Shown: in pieces, positions 20,218 to 47,576 of the stretch
How the letters are laid out: every line of letters begins with the position of its first letter
Numbering within the stretch: the first letter of the stretch is position 1
Assembly: GCF_000513295.1 (NCBI RefSeq)
Contig: NC_023065.1
Span: 4,031,001 to 4,095,000 of the forward strand
DNA: 64,000 bases
Reading direction: 5' to 3'
DNA from: Magnetospirillum gryphiswaldense MSR-1 v2
GTDB lineage: Bacteria; Pseudomonadota; Alphaproteobacteria; Rhodospirillales; Magnetospirillaceae
Translations under genes and position numbers: made by a program
The notes under the pieces: model-generated
The model's database searches: none
What the model saw: the letters and a program-made list of their open reading frames with translations, nothing else
What the model was told of the DNA's origin: nothing

Positions 20218-21283
20218 GAGCATTTTCACATCGAGCGTCCATATCCGTCGTGGGCGAAGAAATTGGCGCATTCCTCGGGCGGAAACAGGTCGATGAGTTT
20301 TCCGATCACGTCCCATAAGGTGTTGATGGTGCGGGCTTGCGCCTTTCGCAGCAGGCTCTTGAGCTTGGCGAAGGCGAGCTCGATGGGATTGAGGTCTGGG
20401 GAGTAGGGCGGCAGATACCGCAGGGTGGCCCCTCGGGCTTCGATGAGTTGCTTGACCCCTGCCACCTTGTGGGCGGGCAGATTGTCCATTACGACGATGT
20501 CGCCGGGCCGCAAGGTCGGAGCCAGGACCTGCTCGACATAGGCCAGGAAGATCGCGCCATTCATCGCCTTGTCGATGACGAAGGGGGCGGAGATTCCGTC
20601 ATGCCGGAGCGCCCCGACGAAGGTGGTCATTTTCCAATGACCGTGCGGCACCGCAGCCAGCAGCCGCTGACCGCGCGGCGCCCGTCCGTAGCGCCGGGTC
20701 ATGTTGGTCGATGCCCCGGTTTCATCAAGGAAGACCAAGCGGGTTGGGTCCAGCGCCGGCTGCTCGGCTCGCCAGGCGATGCGTCCTTCGGCTACGTCGG
20801 GACGTTCCTGCTCGGCAGCATGCGCACTCTTTTTTTCAGACTGAGGTCGAGCCGCTCAAGCGTGTTCCACAGGCCGCCGACGCTGATCGACACGCCCAAT
20901 TCGGCCAGAACCCAGGCGCGCAACTCAGCCAGCGTGGCATCGGGCTCGACCTTGATCTGCGCCTGCAACGCCTCAAGGTGAGCCGCCAGCTTCTGTCCTG
21001 GCCGCCCAGGCCGTGGCTTCACCGTCGTCTCGCCGGTGGCCCGGCGGCGGCCTTGGGCCTTGTAGATGTACGAAACGCTCACCCGGAACAGCGGCGCCAC
21101 CTCGTAGGCGCTCATGCCGCTGTCCACAGCCGCCAAAACTCTATCGCGCAAGTCCTGAGAATAGGACTGCCCTGAGCGCCACGTCATCGCATCATCCTCG
21201 GGAGCGTTGTTACCGAAGATGTTGAATCACAAAATGACCTCAGGGGGAATCCTCTACCGATTCCGCTCGGCGTGAAACCGCTC
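20218..21283 (-). mobile_element. IS630-family insertion sequence, copy 1
   Basis: A 1,066-bp element bounded by TA dinucleotides (20216-20217 and 21284-21285), the IS630/Tc1-mariner target duplication. Terminal inverted repeats begin GAGC and match at 16 of 20 positions. The whole sequence recurs at 32849-33914 with no difference noticed. It inserted 18 bases after the PycTM-like gene and 25 bases before the end of ctaB, so neither gene is broken. It forms the right boundary of the accessory island. Confidence 0.93.
20226..21187 (-). CDS. IS630 transposase, made by -1 frameshifting (copy 1)
   Basis: Two frames encode one transposase. The upstream frame (20792-21187) holds the helix-turn-helix domain ([29 protein letters not shown]). 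The downstream frame holds the DDE domain: D in [12 protein letters not shown] in [11 protein letters not shown] in [14 protein letters not shown]. They join at a run of seven A's on the coding strand (20836-20830), where a -1 slip turns LSLKKRV into [16 protein letters not shown] and continues into the catalytic frame. That is the standard IS630 programmed frameshift. Confidence 0.9.
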
Positions 21284-26642: not shown

Positions 26643-26850
26643 TCTCGGGTCAATGCCCGATCCCACCCGCAGCGGGTTAGGTTAGGATACCCGCATCTCC
26701 ACCCCGGGGGGGGAGGGGGACGACGCCTCCGATGGGTTGCATCTTCTGCCGTGCAGCCATGTCGCGAGGCGTCCTTGCTTTGGGCCTCACCGCTTTGCCC
26801 GGCGCCCCATCAGGCGTATGATGATGGGGAATACGGTGAGGGAGGCGACC

Positions 26851-31638: not shown

Positions 31639-31711
31639 GGTGGAAAAATGTGCGCCCAGGCTTGGCCAAAGTCAACACGAGCGGCAGCATCAGGGCATTG
31701 ACGGCGACACA

Positions 31712-31735
31712 ATATTTCCATATATCTGGAAATAT
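31712..31735 (+). promoter_or_regulatory. ArsR-type operator over the arsR start
   Basis: ATATTTCC (31712-31719) and GGAAATAT (31728-31735) are a perfect 8-bp inverted repeat separated by eight AT-rich bases. The right arm overlaps the arsR ATG at 31734. Binding would block arsR-arsM initiation and could affect the divergent DUF2946 gene. Confidence 0.6.
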
Positions 31736-32033
31736 GGATGAAAAAGCAATCATCGCGGCGCTGTCGGCGCTGGCCCAGGAAAGTCGGCTGCGGGTGTTTC
31801 GTCTGCTGGTGATCGCCGGTCCCGCCGGCCTGCCGGCCGGGCAGATCGCCGAGGAATTGGCGGTCACTCCCAACACCCTGTCGTTCCACCTTTCGCATTT
31901 GAAGAATGCGGGGCTGGTGGCGGTCCGGCGCGACGGTCGGTCGTTGATCTATTCGGCCCGTTACGATCAGGCGCGTGGTCTGGTCGATTATCTCACCGAG
32001 AAGTGCTGCAGCCGTACTCCGTGCTGCGACTGA
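31734..32033 (+). CDS. arsR: ArsR-family metalloregulator
   Basis: A 99-residue winged-helix repressor: MDEKAIIAALSALAQESRLRVFRLLV, then the recognition helix region AVTPNTLSFHLSHLKNAGLVAVRRDGRSLIYSA. Two cysteine pairs lie at the extreme C-terminus (C91-C92 and C97-C98 in EKCCSRTPCC), a layout suited to As(III) sensing. Start 31734 is inside a palindrome that looks like its own operator. arsM follows 13 bases downstream, so the pair is a small arsenic operon. Confidence 0.9.
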   Translation: MDEKAIIAALSALAQESRLRVFRLLVIAGPAGLPAGQIAEELAVTPNTLSFHLSHLKNAGLVAVRRDGRSLIYSARYDQARGLVDYLTEKCCSRTPCCD

Positions 32034-32046
32034 ACAGGAGGATGCC

Positions 32047-32844
32047 ATGAATCCCGATCAGATCCGCGCAATGGTGCGCAATCGGTATGGCGCCATCGCC
32101 GACGGTGCTGCCTCCTCGTGTTGCGCCCCATCATCCGCCGGCGTGTCGTGCTGCGGCGGCGGGGAATCCCCCAGTTCCGATGATCTGGCCCGGCGCATGG
32201 GCTATGGCGACGACGACCTGGAGGCGGCGGGGGCCGGAAATCTGGGTTTGGGTTGCGGCAATCCCCAGGCCATCGCCGCTATGCGCCCCGGTGAGGTGGT
32301 GGTGGATTTGGGCTCGGGCGCCGGTTTCGACTGCTTCCTCGCCGCCGCTCAGGTGGGCGAAAGCGGGCATGTGATCGGTATCGACATGACGCACGAGATG
32401 CTGGCAAAGGCCCGCGACAACGCCACCAAGCTGGGTCTGACCCAGGTGGAATTCCGCCTGGGCGAGATCGAGCATCTGCCCATCGCCGACAATGTCGCCG
32501 ACGTGGTCATCTCCAATTGCGTCATCAACCTGTCGCCGGACAAGCCCGGTGTGCTGCGTGAAGCGTTCCGCGTGCTGAAACCCGGTGGACGGGTCGCCGT
32601 CTCGGATGTGGTGATGCTGAAAACATTGCCGCCCGAACTGGCGACCCGTACCGAATTGTTCGCCGGTTGCGTCGGCGGTGCGGCCAGTGCCGACGATCTG
32701 CGCCGCTGGCTGGGAGAGGCCGGGTTCGTCGATATCAAGATCGAGCCCAAGTCAGAAAGTCGCGACCTGATCCGCGAATGGGCGCCCGGCTTGGGCGTCG
32801 AGGATTATGTCGCTTCCGCCGTCATTCAGGCGCGCAAGCCCTGA
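32047..32844 (+). CDS. arsM: Arsenite S-adenosylmethionine methyltransferase
   Basis: A 265-residue SAM-dependent enzyme that methylates As(III). The SAM motif VVDLGSGAGFDCFLAA is clear. Conserved As-binding cysteines of the family fit C70 (GLGCGNP), C148 (ISNCVINL) and C198 (LFAGCVGG). The N-terminus has extra cysteine pairs (SSCCAPSS, VSCCGGG). AGGAGG precedes the ATG at 32047. The stop codon lies four bases before the second IS630 copy. Confidence 0.92.
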   Translation: MNPDQIRAMVRNRYGAIADGAASSCCAPSSAGVSCCGGGESPSSDDLARRMGYGDDDLEAAGAGNLGLGCGNPQAIAAMRPGEVVVDLGSGAGFDCFLAAAQVGESGHVIGIDMTHEMLAKARDNATKLGLTQVEFRLGEIEHLPIADNVADVVISNCVINLSPDKPGVLREAFRVLKPGGRVAVSDVVMLKTLPPELATRTELFAGCVGGAASADDLRRWLGEAGFVDIKIEPKSESRDLIREWAPGLGVEDYVASAVIQARKP

Positions 32845-32848
32845 TTTA

Positions 32849-33914
32849 GAGCATTTTCACATCGAGCGTCCATATCCGTCGTGGGCGAAGAAATTGGCGC
32901 ATTCCTCGGGCGGAAACAGGTCGATGAGTTTTCCGATCACGTCCCATAAGGTGTTGATGGTGCGGGCTTGCGCCTTTCGCAGCAGGCTCTTGAGCTTGGC
33001 GAAGGCGAGCTCGATGGGATTGAGGTCTGGGGAGTAGGGCGGCAGATACCGCAGGGTGGCCCCTCGGGCTTCGATGAGTTGCTTGACCCCTGCCACCTTG
33101 TGGGCGGGCAGATTGTCCATTACGACGATGTCGCCGGGCCGCAAGGTCGGAGCCAGGACCTGCTCGACATAGGCCAGGAAGATCGCGCCATTCATCGCCT
33201 TGTCGATGACGAAGGGGGCGGAGATTCCGTCATGCCGGAGCGCCCCGACGAAGGTGGTCATTTTCCAATGACCGTGCGGCACCGCAGCCAGCAGCCGCTG
33301 ACCGCGCGGCGCCCGTCCGTAGCGCCGGGTCATGTTGGTCGATGCCCCGGTTTCATCAAGGAAGACCAAGCGGGTTGGGTCCAGCGCCGGCTGCTCGGCT
33401 CGCCAGGCGATGCGTCCTTCGGCTACGTCGGGACGTTCCTGCTCGGCAGCATGCGCACTCTTTTTTTCAGACTGAGGTCGAGCCGCTCAAGCGTGTTCCA
33501 CAGGCCGCCGACGCTGATCGACACGCCCAATTCGGCCAGAACCCAGGCGCGCAACTCAGCCAGCGTGGCATCGGGCTCGACCTTGATCTGCGCCTGCAAC
33601 GCCTCAAGGTGAGCCGCCAGCTTCTGTCCTGGCCGCCCAGGCCGTGGCTTCACCGTCGTCTCGCCGGTGGCCCGGCGGCGGCCTTGGGCCTTGTAGATGT
33701 ACGAAACGCTCACCCGGAACAGCGGCGCCACCTCGTAGGCGCTCATGCCGCTGTCCACAGCCGCCAAAACTCTATCGCGCAAGTCCTGAGAATAGGACTG
33801 CCCTGAGCGCCACGTCATCGCATCATCCTCGGGAGCGTTGTTACCGAAGATGTTGAATCACAAAATGACCTCAGGGGGAATCCTCTACCGATTCCGCTCG
33901 GCGTGAAACCGCTC
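32849..33914 (-). mobile_element. IS630-family insertion sequence, copy 2
   Basis: Same 1,066-bp element as at 20218-21283, in the same orientation. It is flanked by TA at 32847-32848 and 33915-33916. Removing it joins arsM's TGA to a TAA stop of the convergent ATPase with one base between, so it inserted exactly in the ATPase stop codon and converted TAA to TAG. The three bases before TA and four after TA (ATT, GCGG) are the same as at copy 1. Confidence 0.93.
32857..33818 (-). CDS. IS630 transposase, made by -1 frameshifting (copy 2)
   Basis: Identical in both frames to the transposase of copy 1: the helix-turn-helix frame is 33423-33818, and the DDE frame continues to 32857 after the slip at the run of seven A's (33467-33461 on the coding strand). 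All DDE motifs are intact, so the element may be active. Confidence 0.9.
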
Positions 33915-35999
33915 TAGCGGGCGGTCGGCATCAGTCGGCGCAAGGCGTTGAGCAGGATGCCGATGGTGGTGCCGTTGTGCAAAAGCGCGGTGGCGATGGG
34001 CGACAGCAGGCCCAGCGCCGCCAAGCCCAGGATGCCGGTGTTCAGCCCCACGGTCAGACGGTAATTGCCGGCGATGCGGTCCATGGCGGCATTGGCCAGT
34101 TCCTTGGCGTCGGCGACGCGGTCGATGTTGTCCTCCAACAGGGCGATGTCGGCGGTCAGGCGGGCGATGTCGGCGCCCTTGCATGGCGATGCCCACATGG
34201 GCGCCGGCCAGGGCCGGGGCGTCGTTGATACCGTCGCCGATAAAGGCGATGCGGGCGCCGTCCCGGCTCAGCCGGGCGATGATGTCGGCCTTGTCCTCGG
34301 GCATCAGCTCGGCGTGGAAAACGTCCAGGCCCAACGCGGCGGCCAGATCGGCGGCGCGGTCGCGGTGGTCGCCGGTCAACAGCAGGATGCGCTTGGCCCC
34401 GGCCCGGCGCAGGCGGGCGATGGTTTCGGCGCTGGTGGCGCGGATGGAATCCTTCAACGCCAGGATACCCAGTAATTTACCGCCATAACCGATGAACAGC
34501 AGGGTCTTGCCCTGCTGGTACAGGCGGTCGATCACCGGCTGATGCAAGCTGATGTCGATGCCTTCGTCCTCCTGGACGAAATGACGCGAGCCGACCACCA
34601 CGCGCTTGCCGTCGATGACGCTGGCGACGCCATGGGCGACGATGAACTGCACTTCGGCATGGTCGAAATGGTGGTTGTGAGTGGCCTTGGCGGCATTGAC
34701 CACGGCCAGGGCCAGGGGGTGGAAGTAATGTTCTTCCACCGATGCGGCCAGACAGATCAGGTCGTCGGCACTGAACGAGGCGTCGAAGGTGATGGAATCG
34801 GTGACGTCCAGCATGCCGGTGGTCAAGGTGCCGGTCTTGTCGAAGATGAAGGTGTCGGCGCTGGCCAGCCGTTCCAGCGCGGTGGCGCCCTTGACCAGGA
34901 TGCCGGCGCGACCGGCGTCGAACATGGCCGATTTGAAGGCCACCGGCGTGGCCAGTTTGAGGGCGCAGGAATAATCGGCCTGCAACACCGAGGCGGCGTT
35001 GCGCCAGTTGCCGGTAACCAGGGCCGAGGCACCGGCCAGCTTGAGCACGGTGGGGACCAATTGGTCGGCCAGCTTGGCCGCCTCGATCTGGGCCTCGCTT
35101 TTGGCGGTCAGCGATTGTTCCACATAATCGGCGATGCGGGCGGCGGCGGTGCGGCTGCCCACCTGCTCGGCATAGATGCCGAGGCGGCCTTCCTCCATCA
35201 GCGTGCCCGACAACACCGCGTCACCACGGCCCTTGACCACGGCGACGCTTTCACCGGTCATGGCCGCCTCGTTGACGGTGGCCTCGCCGACCAGCACGGT
35301 GCCGTCGACGGGGATAACGGTGCCGGCGCCGACGATGACGGTATCGCCCACCGCCACTTCGGTGGCCGGGATCTGCACCTCGACCCCGTCCTTCAACACC
35401 CAGACCTGATCGCTGGTCGGGCGCAGCAGGTGTTTCAGCAAATCGTCGGAGCGGCGGGCGATGGAATTTTCCATGTATTCGCCCAAGGCCAGCATGAAGG
35501 TGGTGGTGTTGGCGGCGGTGAAATCGGACCGCGCCAGCGAGATGGACACCGCCATGGCTTCAAGCACATGGCTGGTGATGCCGTTCTTGCCATAATCGGC
35601 GGCGGTGTGATGCAGCAACGGCAGGGCCGCGTGCAAGCTGACCGGCAGACGCAGCCCCATGGGCAAGGCGTTGGTGCCCAACAGTACGGCCAAGGCGGCG
35701 GCCACCGCCGCCCTACCGTCATCGGTCCTGGCCGTCTTGGCGGCGATGTCGTCCAGGGTCAGCCCGGCCAGGGCGGCGGCAAGACGGTCGCCATCGGTCA
35801 GGGCTGGGTCGAAGTGGAGCACCAGCGAGCGGGCGCGGTCGTTGGCACGGGCGGTCTCGACTCCATCCAGCAGACACGCCGCCGCCTCCAGCGCCGCGCC
35901 ATGGGCGGGGGCGTCTGGATGGCGGCGATAGCGCAGGCGGATACGACCGGGCAGGCGGTGGACCACCGCCACCGAGCCCAGCCACGGGGTGTTGCTCAT
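33914..35999 (-). pseudogene. P1B-type metal ATPase (FezB-like), frameshifted near its 3' end
   Basis: About 695 residues if read through. The N-terminus carries a short HMA-like domain with HRLPGRIRLRYRRH. Later come AAMTGES (actuator), the metal-site helix YSCALKLATPVA in place of CPC, the phosphorylation site FDKTGTLTTG, LLTGDH and GDGINDAPALAGAHVGIAM. Directly after GIAM, at 34181, two bases seem to be missing; the frame then resumes as KGADIARLTADIALLEDNID and continues to LMPTAR. Read literally, translation enters a wrong frame and ends inside the IS at 33885. The stop of the true frame is shared with the IS end. Such SCA-type ATPases with PGRIR motifs are typical of iron-storage ferrosome clusters. 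It starts with an ATGA overlap. A sequencing error is possible. Confidence 0.8.
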
Positions 36000-36331
36000 A
36001 GGGCGCCGTTCTGCTCGGCCAGGACTTCCGCCTGCAGGTCGGCCAGTTGTTCCTTCATCTCGGCGACGTTGCCCATCATGCCGGCATAGGCCTTGAGGGC
36101 GCCCTTGAACAGCTTGCCACGCAAGTCCTCGTCCGCCAGCACATAGGCGGTGGCGCCGCCCAGCAGCAGGCCCAGCAGGAACTGTTCGGTGCGGCCCTGG
36201 GGCAGCAGGCGCCCCAGCCCGGCCAGCACGCCCTGGTTTTGCCCCTGGCCCATATGCAGGGCCATCATCTGTTCCAGGTCGCGGCGCTTCAGGCCTTTCT
36301 TCGCCTTCTTCTGTTGATTCTTCTTAGCCAA
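35996..36331 (-). CDS. Small basic/hydrophobic protein of the ATPase operon
   Basis: A 111-residue protein. The N-terminus is very basic (MAKKNQQKKAKKGLKRR), followed by a Gly-rich hydrophobic segment (about 52-66, FLLGLLLGGATAYVLAD) and an amphipathic C-terminal helix rich in Glu/Leu. It overlaps the ATPase start as ATGA, and its own start lies inside the previous gene (eight-base overlap). I do not recognise a family. The Gly-rich single helix resembles the small membrane proteins in ferrosome-type clusters. Confidence 0.7.
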   Translation of the reverse strand: MAKKNQQKKAKKGLKRRDLEQMMALHMGQGQNQGVLAGLGRLLPQGRTEQFLLGLLLGGATAYVLADEDLRGKLFKGALKAYAGMMGNVAEMKEQLADLQAEVLAEQNGAL

Positions 36332-36653
36332 TTTCGGCCTCCTGGGGTGGGGAAGGGGGATTAAGCAACATCTCGGTGGCGGCGACGCCCAAGGCGCCGC
36401 CGGCCACGGCGATCAAGGCGCGGGCATAATCGCCCCGGCGCAGGGATTCGGCGGTGGCGATGCCGGCGGCGAGGGCGGTACCGCCTTGCAGGGCCAGACG
36501 CAGCACCTTGCGATTGGAGGGCTGGCCCCGGCTCCAGCGATCCTGGATCGCCGCCAGCAGGCCGGTGGCGACCAGTCCACGGGTGAAGTTGCCGGCCAGT
36601 TCCATTGGCGCCAGGGCGGCGGCGGCTTTGGCTTTACCCTTGCCCTTCTTCAC
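36324..36653 (-). CDS. Small membrane-associated protein of the ATPase operon
   Basis: A 109-residue protein beginning MKKGKGKAKAAAALAPMEL. It has two Ala/Gly-rich hydrophobic stretches (about 57-68, GGTALAAGIATA, and 80-95, LIAVAGGALGVAATEML) and a short acidic tail. The start overlaps the stop of the upstream gene as ATGA. No known family. Its Gly/Ala-rich helices and lysine-rich start resemble its operon neighbours, so they may have a common structural role. Confidence 0.7.
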   Translation of the reverse strand: MKKGKGKAKAAAALAPMELAGNFTRGLVATGLLAAIQDRWSRGQPSNRKVLRLALQGGTALAAGIATAESLRRGDYARALIAVAGGALGVAATEMLLNPPSPPQEAEIG

Positions 36654-36997
36654 GAATCGGACTCGGGCTTGGCATCGACCGGGGCGGTCGCGGCGGCGGC
36701 CTTCTTCTTGGCCGCCACCTTGCGCCGTGGCGTTGCCTTGGCCACCGGCACGGCGGCGGGTTCGGGCGCCGCCGGCTCTTCCGGGGTCAATTTGGTGCGC
36801 AAGCTGGCCGAGGATTTCTCGATGGCCGACAAGCCGGAGACGGTGACGTCGCGCAGGCCGGCCTGGGCCTTGTCCAGGCCACCGCGGGCCTTGTCGCCGA
36901 TGCTGCCCAGGGATTGGGTGGCTTTGACGTTTTTCAGCAGTTTGACGCCGACGATGCCGGCGATGATGCCGGAGGCGAAGGTAAGAAAAGGCAACAT
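36650..36997 (-). CDS. Single-helix protein with Ala/Lys-rich tail
   Basis: A 115-residue protein. MLPFLTFASGIIAGIVGVKLLKNV is a membrane helix, followed by an amphipathic region (residues 25-75). A low-complexity Ala/Pro/Lys tail with PRRKVAAKKKAAAA follows, like histone-H1-type or bacterial linker tails. AAGGAG precedes the ATG at 36997. Function unknown. The layout (helix plus basic tail) would suit a protein that coats or organises a membrane compartment, which is inference. Confidence 0.7.
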   Translation of the reverse strand: MLPFLTFASGIIAGIVGVKLLKNVKATQSLGSIGDKARGGLDKAQAGLRDVTVSGLSAIEKSSASLRTKLTPEEPAAPEPAAVPVAKATPRRKVAAKKKAAAATAPVDAKPESDS

Positions 36998-37016
36998 GAT
37001 GGACTCCTTTTCTGGC

Positions 37017-37346
37017 TCAGGCCTTGGCGGCATTCACCAAGGTTTGCAGAAGAATTTCGCTGCCCGGGGCATCTTGCCCGGACAGCAGGCCATCCCAGGC
37101 GGAAGCCGGGATCATGCGGGCGTCGTATTCGATGGTGCAGGATTTCGCCAACGGGTTCAGGCTGACGCTACGGATGCCCGGCATGGCCCCGAGGGACTGG
37201 CCGAACCGTTTGGCCTCGGCTGCTTGGGCCATCAGGTCGGCGCCCAGCGGCGCGGTCAACTTCAGGCGGATGCGCCCAGGGATGTGATGGGCGATGGTGA
37301 GAGCGCGAATGAAGCGCAGTAGCGGGAAATCCAAATCCACGGACAC
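37017..37346 (-). CDS. HMA-like domain protein with PGRIRL motif
   Basis: A 109-residue protein that probably starts at GTG 37346 (VSVDLDFPLLRF), preceded by AAAGGGA. It holds AHHIPGRIRLKLTAPLG and then a ferredoxin-like betaalphabeta pattern (MPGIRSVSLNPLAKSCTIEYD), like HMA_2-type metal-binding or metal-chaperone folds, with one cysteine. The same PGRIRL motif starts the ATPase and the next upstream protein, tying the three together. FezC-type ferrosome proteins have this domain; assignment is by analogy. Confidence 0.7.
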   Translation of the reverse strand: MSVDLDFPLLRFIRALTIAHHIPGRIRLKLTAPLGADLMAQAAEAKRFGQSLGAMPGIRSVSLNPLAKSCTIEYDARMIPASAWDGLLSGQDAPGSEILLQTLVNAAKA

Positions 37347-37360
37347 GGGCGACGGTCCCT

Positions 37361-37828
37361 TTACTTGAAAGTGCGGCGCCAATGGGTCGCCATGTGGGTC
37401 AGCATCATCATCACGAACAGGGCGCCGGCCTGGGCATGCAATTTTCGGCTGGTGCCGAGGGCGGCCAACGATACCGCCATGCTGGCCACCGCGCCGATCT
37501 TGGCGGCACGGTTGATCTGCCATTTGGCCTTGTGCGGTTGCGGCAGGGCGATGCGCGTGCCCCTGTGCGGCGACGCCCGGGGAGAGGCCGGGGCGGATGG
37601 ATCGATGGGCAGCACCGCCGCCACCTCGGCACGGATGCGGGTTTCCATACCGGTGTCGGCGGGATCAAAGCGCAGCAGCAGCGAGCCGATGACCGGGTTG
37701 CCCTCGACCTGGGCCAGCGGCAGCAGCCGCGCGGTCAAGTCCCGATGGCGGCCCGTATCGCGCAACAGCGGGTGGCGCAGGCGAATCCTCCCCGGCAGGA
37801 CCGAGACGAAGGCGGTCTTGTCGGTCAT
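37361..37828 (-). CDS. HMA-like/PGRIRL protein with membrane tail
   Basis: A 155-residue protein. The N-terminus has FVSVLPGRIRLRHPLLRD, then PVIGSLLLRFDP, a short HMA-like half. The C-terminal part has two hydrophobic segments (about residues 108-123, IGAVASMAVSLAALG, and 130-145, ALFVMMMLTHMA). I start it at MTDKTAF (37828); a GTG three codons upstream is possible. It is the first gene of the operon and lies 50 bases from a Fur-like box. Likely membrane-bound and metal-related. Confidence 0.7.
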   Translation of the reverse strand: MTDKTAFVSVLPGRIRLRHPLLRDTGRHRDLTARLLPLAQVEGNPVIGSLLLRFDPADTGMETRIRAEVAAVLPIDPSAPASPRASPHRGTRIALPQPHKAKWQINRAAKIGAVASMAVSLAALGTSRKLHAQAGALFVMMMLTHMATHWRRTFK

Positions 37829-37875
37829 CGGCGCCACCGTTTGTGTCTTGCCCGCATCCGTCCTGCCTTGGTGTG

Positions 37876-37890
37876 TGATAATGAGTTTGA
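37876..37890 (-). promoter_or_regulatory. Fur-like box before the ATPase operon
   Basis: TGATAAT-G-AGTTTGA fits the 7-1-7 Fur pattern (TGAnAATnATTnTCA): perfect in the left half, 4 of 7 in the right half. It is about 50 bases before the first operon gene. The 188-base divergent gap 37838-38025 otherwise shows no clear feature. Confidence 0.4.
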
Positions 37891-38025
37891 TAGTGACTTG
37901 CGTTGAGAACCTTATTCCACAACAAAGGTGCGATCAAATTTTTCGCGACGATTAATTGCGGATGGCAGGGTTGTCGTGATCGTGATAGCCATTGGTTGTG
38001 GGGATGGTGATGCCTGGGGGCGAAG

Positions 38026-38550
38026 ATGGTGGGACGGCGCATTTGTGGTCTGTCGATTGTTTTCGTGGCCGCCGCGGCGATTGCGCAAGAGGTGCCGCGC
38101 CCGGTGTTGCATCCGCCATCGACCGAAGCCGAGCGGGCGCTTGCCGCCGTGCTTGGACAGGGCGACAACGAAGCCGGCAGCTATGACTTCCTGACCGATC
38201 GCGACGGCGGCAGAAAGACTCACGGGGCAAAGTTCGACGGTTATTTCAGCCCGTCGCTCCTTGCGGCCATCGCGGCTCATGAACGCAAGCTGGTCAAGCA
38301 GAATTGCGGCGGCGTCTATGTGGATGGCGACGTTTGCGGCTTTGACGTCAGTCCCTTGACCTGCGTCCAGGACATGCCCGCCGATGGCTATCGATTCGCC
38401 ACCGAGCGGACACAGGTGAACAGTGTGCAGGTCGCGGTCGGCTGGGAAACGTACGGCGCGGTCATCGCCCGCTATCGGCTGATCAAAAATCCGGGGCGAT
38501 GGGTCATCGACGCCATTTCCTGCCCGGATGGTCCCCGCTTTAATTGGTAG
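38026..38550 (+). CDS. Secreted protein of unknown function
   Basis: A 174-residue protein with a signal peptide (MVGRRICGLSIVFVAAAAIAQ). The mature part has a DFLTDRDGGRKTHGAKFDGYFSPSL stretch, and four cysteines (QNCGG, DVCGF, LTCVQ, ISCPDG) that may form two disulfides. It ends DAISCPDGPRFNW. GGGGGCGAAG precedes the ATG. No family is assigned. It is divergent from the ATPase operon and may share its control region. Confidence 0.65.
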   Translation: MVGRRICGLSIVFVAAAAIAQEVPRPVLHPPSTEAERALAAVLGQGDNEAGSYDFLTDRDGGRKTHGAKFDGYFSPSLLAAIAAHERKLVKQNCGGVYVDGDVCGFDVSPLTCVQDMPADGYRFATERTQVNSVQVAVGWETYGAVIARYRLIKNPGRWVIDAISCPDGPRFNW

Positions 38551-38557
38551 GCGGGGT

Positions 38558-40510
38558 TCAGCCGATGCGGCCCAAGGCCTGACCGCCGCCCGGCGGCCCG
38601 CCCGGCTGCGATGCGCCGGCACCGGCGGTCTGCTTCATCAGCTTTTCCATTTCCTCGATCATCTTGCCGGCCACCTCGACGATGGGGGCGAAGCCACGCG
38701 GATCAGCGATGCGCTCCAACAAGGCCTTGTAATGGGCCTGGATGAGCAGGGCTTCTTCCTTGCGCTCGGGCGGCAGGCCTTGGGTCTGCCGCCGCGCCCG
38801 GGCGGGAATACGGCGCAGCAAGCCCATGCGCCGGTTGGACAGCACCTTGTAGTTCATCACCTCGGCCAATTGACTGGAATAATCGGCGGGGGACAGAGCC
38901 TCGAACAGGTGTTCGATCAGTTCGATCTCGCTGTATTCCAGGATCAGGAAGACTCGTTGGGTCTTCTGCCAATCGGCGATGAACTGTCCGACATCGGCCA
39001 GTCTTTGCGCCAGTTCGGGGGCGAAGGTGGCACAATCCAGCATCTTCCACGCCTTGCACGAGGCCATGGGCAATTTACCGGGCAGGCCGAAATTGCGGCT
39101 GAGCTGATGGGCGACCGCCAGCAAGGCGCGGCTGGAACTGGATTGGGTCGCCTTGCTCCAGCACTTGTAGAGCAGATCGAGGGCAGTGAAATCGGAATCG
39201 GGCCCCTGATCGTCCAGCAGGGCGGCCAGGGCCTCGCGCTCGGTGGGCAAATCCGTTTCGTCGCAGAGCTTGACCGGCATGAGGGCTGTGGTCGGGCGGT
39301 GGGTCGCGATAACCGCCTCGACCTGGAGGGCCAGGGGGGAAAGTGGCGCTGTTTCGGCGGTCGGCTCGTTCTGCGGTTCCGGCAGGGGTGGCGCGACGGG
39401 GGTCGGCTGCGGTTGCGGTTCCGGCAGGGGTGGCGCGACGGGGGTCGGCTGCGGTTGCGGTTCCGGCTGGGGCGGCGCGATGGGGATGGGTTGCGGCTGC
39501 GGTTCCGGCTGGGGCGGCGCGATGGGAATGGGTTGCGGCTGCGGTTCCGGCTGGGGCGGTGCGACGGGGGCGGGTTGCGGCTGCGGTTCCGGCTGGGGCG
39601 GCGCGACGGGGACGGGTTGCGGCTGCGGTTCCGACTGGGGTGGCGCGACGGGAATGGGTTGCGGCTGCGGTTCCGGCTGGGGCGGCGCGACGGGGATGGG
39701 CTGCGGCTGCGGTTCCGGCTGGGGCGGCGCGACGACCTGTGATGGTGCGGGCGGACGTTTGCGCTTGGGCTTGAGCTTGATCTTCAAGCTTTCGACGTCG
39801 CTCGGCGGCGGCGGCGGCGGCGGTGTCGCGGTGATCACGGCGGGCCGGTCCTGATCGACCGGCGGGGGCGGCGCCATCGTCCGTTTGCGTCTTTTCGGCT
39901 GATGCACCTTGAGGGTCGGTGGCGGTGGCTCGGGGGGGACGAAGGACTCCATCACCGCGTCGGCCAGCGGCAATGCGGGCAGAAGGGGGGTATCCTGCGG
40001 TGGCGGCGGTTCGGGCTTTGATGGCGGCGGCTCGGCAGTCCAGCCCCCGCCCGGGGTGGCAACCGGGGCGCCGATTTCTTCCAGCAAAAGACGGTCGTTC
40101 TCGGCCTGAGCCGATGGCGGCGGCAGACGGTCTGCCAGATGTTGGCGCTGGCTGCATTTCTTGCGGCGTTGTCGGCGGCGCCGTTCGACCGTGTCGATGT
40201 CGTGAAACGGTGCCGGCAAGGGGGCGCTCTGGTGGTCGGCGCCACCTTCCAGCATGGCGCTGACCACCCGCAATTGCGGCAAGATGTCTTCGTGGCCGGT
40301 GTCATCGCCGTGGCCGTCCTGGCTGTGGCCATGGTCGTGCGACATGGCGTCACCAAGAGTGCGGGCAATGCCCAGCAGGCCGGTGGAGGACGGTGTTTGC
40401 GGGGTATCCGCCGCCAGTACGTGCTCCAGCATCCCGGTCAATTGCTCGGCCGGGATGCCGACGATATCCGCCGGGCTTGGCCGGCTGCGGTGGGCGAAGA
40501 AGTCGCTCAT
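38558..40510 (-). CDS. Long proline-rich repeat protein
   Basis: A 650-residue soluble protein. It has an N-terminal region with a His/Asp-rich stretch (SHDHGHSQDGHGDDTGHED, about residues 56-74), a basic RRRRQRRKK patch and a Pro-rich low-complexity centre. Residues about 260-386 are nine tandem copies of a 14-residue unit (APPQPEPQPQPIPV and variants). A C-terminal globular alpha-helical domain (about 420-640) contains ALDLLYKCWSKA, YSEIELIEHLFEAL and IEEMEKLMKQ. The C-terminal domain is well formed but not recognised. It lies 12 bases after rsmA and may be the end of that operon. A cell-pole or scaffold role is conceivable. No signal peptide. Confidence 0.65.
   Translation of the reverse strand: MSDFFAHRSRPSPADIVGIPAEQLTGMLEHVLAADTPQTPSSTGLLGIARTLGDAMSHDHGHSQDGHGDDTGHEDILPQLRVVSAMLEGGADHQSAPLPAPFHDIDTVERRRRQRRKKCSQRQHLADRLPPPSAQAENDRLLLEEIGAPVATPGGGWTAEPPPSKPEPPPPQDTPLLPALPLADAVMESFVPPEPPPPTLKVHQPKRRKRTMAPPPPVDQDRPAVITATPPPPPPPSDVESLKIKLKPKRKRPPAPSQVVAPPQPEPQPQPIPVAPPQPEPQPQPIPVAPPQSEPQPQPVPVAPPQPEPQPQPAPVAPPQPEPQPQPIPIAPPQPEPQPQPIPIAPPQPEPQPQPTPVAPPLPEPQPQPTPVAPPLPEPQNEPTAETAPLSPLALQVEAVIATHRPTTALMPVKLCDETDLPTEREALAALLDDQGPDSDFTALDLLYKCWSKATQSSSSRALLAVAHQLSRNFGLPGKLPMASCKAWKMLDCATFAPELAQRLADVGQFIADWQKTQRVFLILEYSEIELIEHLFEALSPADYSSQLAEVMNYKVLSNRRMGLLRRIPARARRQTQGLPPERKEEALLIQAHYKALLERIADPRGFAPIVEVAGKMIEEMEKLMKQTAGAGASQPGGPPGGGQALGRIG
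39353..39730 (-). repeat. Nine tandem 42-bp coding repeats
   Basis: In-frame 42-base repeats encode the 14-residue unit APPQPEPQPQP[IVAT]P[VI]. The last copy is degenerate (APPLPEPQNEP). Small changes (I/V/A/T at position 12, Q to S or L) mark diverged copies. Length variation between strains is likely. Confidence 0.85.
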
Positions 40511-47509: not shown

Positions 47510-47576
47510 GGCGGGCGGATTATAGACAGCCGAGGCGCCCCGACCAAAGGGAATCTGGTCGGGGTTGAAAACCGGC

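Follow-up and report, generated by a model that had tools for sequence, protein, structure and literature searches.

A six-gene fez-type operon with a frameshifted fezB gene in the genome assembly of Magnetospirillum gryphiswaldense MSR-1

Results

Organization of the Locus

The stretch of M. gryphiswaldense MSR-1 DNA analyzed here (64 kb, referred to as the window) carries six consecutive minus-strand genes at positions 33914–37828. The first encodes a FezC-like protein and the second an HMA_2 protein; three genes for small proteins and one for a P1B-type ATPase follow. The features of the locus are listed in Table 1.

Table 1. Coordinates of the operon and associated features in the window.
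Feature	Position	Strand	Characteristics
fezC-like, 155 aa	37361–37828	-	HMA_2 (ferredoxin-like) domain at the N-terminus, carrying PGRIRLR; two helices at the C-terminus; His131 and His145
HMA_2-type small protein (H), 109 aa	37017–37346	-	PGRIRLK; membrane segment absent by hydropathy
K protein, 127 aa	36650–37033	-	Single N-terminal membrane segment, then Ala/Lys-rich tail
M protein, 109 aa	36324–36653	-	Ala-rich, with membrane segment
D protein, 111 aa	35996–36331	-	Lys-rich, conserved glycine stretch
fezB, part in original frame	34180–35999	-	N-terminal HMA-like domain; membrane helices with SCALKL; DKTGTLT; GDGINDAPAL
fezB, C-terminal 88 codons, out of frame	33914–34180	-	End of P-domain, last two membrane helices, HNGTT
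2-nt deletion site	34178–34184	-	AAAA to AA on the minus strand; frame shifted
fezC upstream region	37829–37970	-	Weak Fur-box-like site CACTATCAAACTCATTATC
IS630-type insertion sequence, 1036 bp	32852–33887	-	HTH_Tnp_IS630 and DDE_3 matches; outside the fez system

An initial annotation had described this locus as a ferrosome-like operon and had assigned the motif PGRIRL to three of its products, namely the ATPase N-terminus, the H protein and FezC. Exactly these three sites, all within the operon, were recovered from the six-frame translation of the window, in which 0.04 exact occurrences were expected from residue composition.

The same annotation had listed three small membrane-associated ORFs. 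All three exist, and one hydrophobic segment was detected in each of the K and M proteins; the D protein is Lys-rich as described, with zero segments above the threshold used. Alternative starts were noted for two genes: an upstream GTG at 37837 for fezC, and an internal Met13 of the K protein, to which its homologues point.

Family Placement of the ATPase

Pfam matches in the ATPase comprised E1-E2_ATPase and HAD, with a weak HMA_2 match at the N-terminus (E 0.08). SCALKL stands before DKTGT in place of CPC, just as had been reported for this protein.

A maximum-likelihood tree placed 23 FezB-like proteins, among them that of the window, in one SCA/HNG(T/S/A)T (P1B-6) clade with 100/100 support. 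Apart from it stood three CPC pumps encoded by the genome of the window, one Rhodoblastus CPC pump and other P-type ATPases. All FezB rows except that of the window were chosen by their SCA-type motif from loci found by homology; for these rows, the motif cannot count as independent evidence. Orthology to the characterized FezB proteins of R. palustris, S. putrefaciens and D. magneticus is presumptive.

HNG(T/S/A)T was present near the C-terminus of the intact FezB proteins inspected, and the HN motif has been named as a P1B-6 feature (PMC9374683). With SCA replacing CPC, and with a clade separate from the Cu/Zn pumps, the ATPase was placed in the P1B-6 type; neither the motif (CPC or related) nor the tree position of a Cu/Zn/Cd exporter was found. 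Searches with Pfam and NCBIfam profiles returned no named Fez model, only HMA_2, DUF4405, DUF5132 and generic ATPase models.

FezC and the Small Proteins

The fezC product gave weak Pfam matches to HMA_2 (E 1e-4) and DUF4405. Among members of the FezC family, HMA_2 was matched in 24 of 25 and DUF4405 in 16 of 25, and residues P12, G13, R14, R16, K110, H131, G135 and H145 were invariant. In the structure model, a ferredoxin-like domain (E-E-H-H-E-E-H) is followed by helices 99–123 and 128–153, the second of which holds both histidines; a search of this model against PDB structures gave nothing below E 0.001.

The FezC of another species is DUF4405-like and binds haem b (PMC11334425). The window protein has in common with it the DUF4405 match, the invariant His pair and the two-helix membrane part, and by sequence it is likewise a putative DUF4405-like haem cytochrome with conserved histidines. 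It differs in that its DUF4405 match lies below Pfam's curated cut-off and its haem binding is a prediction.

The H protein matched HMA_2 with E 3.2e-8, as did all 22 members of its family. For the K and M proteins, no consistent Pfam family was found, while the D protein showed weak matches to DUF5132 (19 of 27 members) and YtxH (13 of 27 members), with its order in the operon conserved. DUF6110 and DUF1490 had zero matches among the three small proteins.

Two outcomes had been named in advance as speaking against a fez identity: an ATPase phylogeny within the Cu/Zn exporters, and HMA-like proteins unlike FezC. Neither was observed. The ATPase fell outside the exporters in the tree, and the HMA-like proteins matched HMA_2, one of them also having DUF4405-like helices as described for FezC (PMC11334425).

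Conservation and Closest Relatives of the Operon

Relatives of the 37361–37837 protein were found in 20 of 99 related genomes, and all six genes occurred in identical order in 17 related loci. When genomes of named species were scanned with a FezB-specific region, 80 loci were recovered in Magnetospirillum, Azospirillum, Rhodoblastus, Rhodopseudomonas, Aromatoleum, Azoarcus, Thauera, Azotobacter, Azomonas, Aeromonas and others.

The order C-H-K-M-D-B was complete in about 40 of the roughly 80 named proteobacterial loci and near-complete in most others. In some beta- and gammaproteobacteria, fezC lay downstream or elsewhere, and at some loci a small gene was undetected. The window carries a single six-gene operon with an order common to other proteobacteria. 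In an even draw across the phylum, a FezB-like match was present in only 8 of 397 genomes, and the fez system is therefore patchy.

Within Magnetospirillum, all six genes with an intact fezB were present in the nearest relative (G005, locus L036) and in M. sulfuroxidans J10 (L070), whose FezB proteins are 92% and 86% identical to that of the window, respectively. Among 16 Rhodopseudomonas species, four carried the window-type operon, with identical order in those read, and one carried a more distant type. A second, more divergent fez-like cluster type was observed in one Rhodopseudomonas species (G501, L161), with a layout resembling that of L068 and L064.

In Rhodopseudomonas palustris CGA009, a fez operon of six genes (RPA2333-2338) has been shown to make ferrosomes (PMC12016538, citing Grant et al. 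2022). The window operon resembles it in having six genes, orthology being presumed from genus and layout, and differs from it in that fezB of the window is frameshifted. Taken together, it can be stated with high confidence that 33914–37828 is a fez (ferrosome) type cluster, whatever the state of fezB. With such gene sets, other bacteria form ferrosomes, compartments in which iron is stored.

Genomic Context and Possible Regulation

The genes immediately ahead of fezC in M. sulfuroxidans J10 are one of iscA type, one for homocitrate synthase, and feoA, feoB and feoC, whereas the window operon does not follow such genes and no feo gene adjoins it. Of 110 loci, among which there are a few duplicates, 23 had FeoB within the stretch that was fetched. 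Given one or two feoB per 4–5 Mb genome, the proportion expected by chance is estimated at well under 1%. A Fur-family gene adjoins the operon in one Rhodopseudomonas species that carries the window type.

In five related genomes (G006, G008, G010, G011 and G031), nifH was located about 12–21 kb from fezC on the same contig. In the genome of the window, nifH maps to 0.38 Mb of the contig, and fezC to 4.07 Mb.

A link between fez and nitrogen fixation by presence and absence was also considered and was rejected: nifH was present in 18 of 20 fez-positive relatives, but also in most fez-negative family members. Since nifH is common without fez and is absent from the Aeromonas fez carriers, only the physical proximity of fez and nifH was retained.

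Fur-box-like sites were found upstream of fezC in 10 of 29 loci, compared with 1.1 in mononucleotide shuffles, which are a weak control. The window site, CACTATCAAACTCATTATC, has 6 mismatches to the Fur-box consensus, which is that of E. coli. A TTGAT/C-N16-GAATAA pair upstream of fezC, spotted by eye, was common to the window and its closest relative; a consensus promoter search upstream of fezC found none.

Frameshift of fezB in the Assembly

The ATPase gene had been annotated as reaching 33914. A P1B ATPase gene is indeed located there, but the single open frame did not hold, a 2-nt deletion having been overlooked. The ORF at 33885–35999 is normal up to ...DAPALAGAHVGIAMQ (...GIAMQ) and then enters an Arg-rich stretch, and the expected end of fezB, KGADIARLTADIALLEDNIDRV...LLHNGTTIGILLNALRRLMPTAR, was found in another frame (33914–34198).

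The frame is lost after codon 607 in this assembly, with the deletion at about 34181 on the plus strand. Relatives have ATG CAA/CAG AAG GG(C/G/T) or codons close to these; the window, with ATG CAA GGG C, is two A's short. On the plus strand of the window, GGCGCCCTTTTGCATGG corresponds to the intact form of fezB and GGCGCCCTTGCATGG to the frameshifted form. In all 17 relatives inspected, fezB is intact and reads through the deletion site.

When the intact FezB of M. sulfuroxidans was modeled, helices 627–662 and 668–690 came after the position of the break, the last one containing HNGTT. An intact FezB with the HN motif in its last membrane helix is thus lacking in this assembly, and no second copy of FezB or FezC was found in the whole genome. 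It was evident that purifying selection acts on both sides of the break: relative to G005, dN/dS was 0.178 before it and 0.143 after it. Values for the small genes were within the range of other pairs, and relaxed selection on these genes was looked for and not seen. As the out-of-frame part is still under purifying selection, the shift is either very recent or a sequencing error.

The second of these explanations was weighed in detail. The same fez operon would then have acquired its 2-nt deletion as an error of the older assembly, and the living strain would have an intact fezB and a ferrosome system silent under usual growth. The out-of-frame part evolves like coding DNA, and the deletion sits in a run of A's. 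At 47513 and 53601 of the window, too, one base is missing from a homopolymer in comparison with the closest relative; these deletions shift reading frames and bear on the accuracy of the assembly. Moreover, the deletion lies 294 bp from the IS630-type element at 32852–33887, a repeated sequence of the kind at which short-read contigs would tend to end.

The assembly used here, presumably the 2014 M. gryphiswaldense MSR-1 genome, is a single contig of 4,365,796 bp. The older MSR-1 assembly was built from Illumina and 454 reads, and resequencing with SMRT and MiSeq gave 4,155,740 bp (PMC5920173). The resequenced genomes have the accessions CP027526 and CP027527.

Against an error, 454 sequencing rarely drops two bases from a four-base run, and Illumina reads would be expected to correct such a loss. 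FezB copies with in-frame stops were also observed in G072:C46 (L069) and in Aeromonas sp. RU39B (L104, L152), which suggests repeated loss, so natural loss happens.

The Moessbauer spectra of MSR-1 likewise speak against a merely silent system: all ferritin-like ferric iron was assigned to bacterioferritin, and this component was missing from MSR-1 without bacterioferritin, in a report that makes no mention of iron starvation and resupply for cells (PMC6529640). An assembly error is considered a serious possibility, falling somewhat short of probable. The evidence leans slightly towards a six-gene fez-type operon in which the fezB frameshift is real; the system would then have been inactivated recently and would make no ferrosomes.

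The IS630-type element was rejected as a cause of the fezB break, since it is located past the original stop codon, at a distance of 26 bp. The element has two transposase ORFs; it and the copy at about 20221–21256 are two of about 30 near-identical copies in the genome, which points to a recent burst. An apparent further frameshift near 26710, where it is uncertain whether the DNA is coding, was not used as evidence.

Comparison with Efflux Systems and Proposed Function

Instead of building an organelle, an operon of this kind might encode a pump for metal efflux together with proteins that scaffold the membrane, in the manner of the PacL1–CtpC platforms. Mycobacterial CtpC shows P1B-6-like features and has a small scaffold partner, and DUF6110 proteins accompany P1B-6 ATPases (PMC9374683). 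Like PacL1–CtpC, the window has a P1B ATPase bearing the HN motif, and a small Ala-rich protein that spans the membrane once; its small fez genes are without functional annotation.

However, CtpC has CPC, a cytochrome and a six-gene operon are absent there, and neither DUF6110 nor DUF1490 is matched by the window proteins. The DUF4405-like cytochrome and the feoABC neighborhood of relatives fit iron storage better, and six-gene fez operons make ferrosomes in R. palustris (PMC12016538). A scaffolded efflux pump is accordingly regarded as improbable. An ordinary Cu/Zn/Cd exporter with chance neighbors can be practically dismissed, since CPC is absent, the clade stands apart from the pumps included with 100/100 support and gene order is kept across about 80 loci, even though generic P1B models score the ATPase (TIGR01525, 405 bits) and the nearest solved structures are Cu and Zn ATPases.

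By analogy with characterized fez systems, FezB would be specific for Fe(II) and would pump it into membrane vesicles. FezC, with its putative haem-binding His pairs, may pass electrons across the membrane and set the redox state of the iron, while the HMA-like domains may bind metal or transfer it. The small proteins, mostly membrane proteins, may shape or scaffold the membrane.

With the frame of fezB lost, no ferrosomes would be expected to form. The organelle proposed for MSR-1 by the initial annotation therefore finds no support in the present sequence, in which fezB is frameshifted, HNGTT and the last two helices are out of frame and no other copy exists; if this sequence is right, ferrosome formation in MSR-1 is unlikely. 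Such a loss fits the Moessbauer data on MSR-1.

Fez clusters as such are of a known kind; the point of interest is that a magnetosome model organism carries one, possibly just lost. Where magnetosomes obtain their iron, and what the phosphate-rich ferric phases of Magnetospirillum are, is a matter of debate (PMC6529640). With a ferrosome cluster, the most used magnetotactic strain would be a tractable host in which two membrane-bound iron organelles exist together. If the cluster is broken, this would account for the absence of ferrosome reports in the papers found, and would offer a ready-made negative background.

The feo and nif neighborhood in relatives suggests that ferrosomes may be an iron reserve for nitrogenase. 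Tentatively, as a reading less likely than not, the fez operon of the genus may belong to a feo/nitrogen-fixation iron-supply region, from which MSR-1 would have moved the operon out before losing fez very recently through the 2-nt deletion, becoming a natural ferrosome-minus magnetotactic bacterium.

Flanking Regions

Beside the IS630 element, genes for an ArsR-family regulator and an ArsM-type arsenite methyltransferase are located at 31650–32844, in a stretch (about 31676–33924) that showed no alignment to the closest relative.

On the other side of the operon, a divergent ORF of 174 aa (38026–38550) has a possible signal peptide and no Pfam match. The 718 bp stretch holding it (37832–38549) is mostly missing from the closest relative. 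It is followed at 38558–40510 by a gene for a 650 aa protein with a Pro/Glu/Gln-rich PQPEPQPQP repeat, the length of which differs from that in the closest relative.
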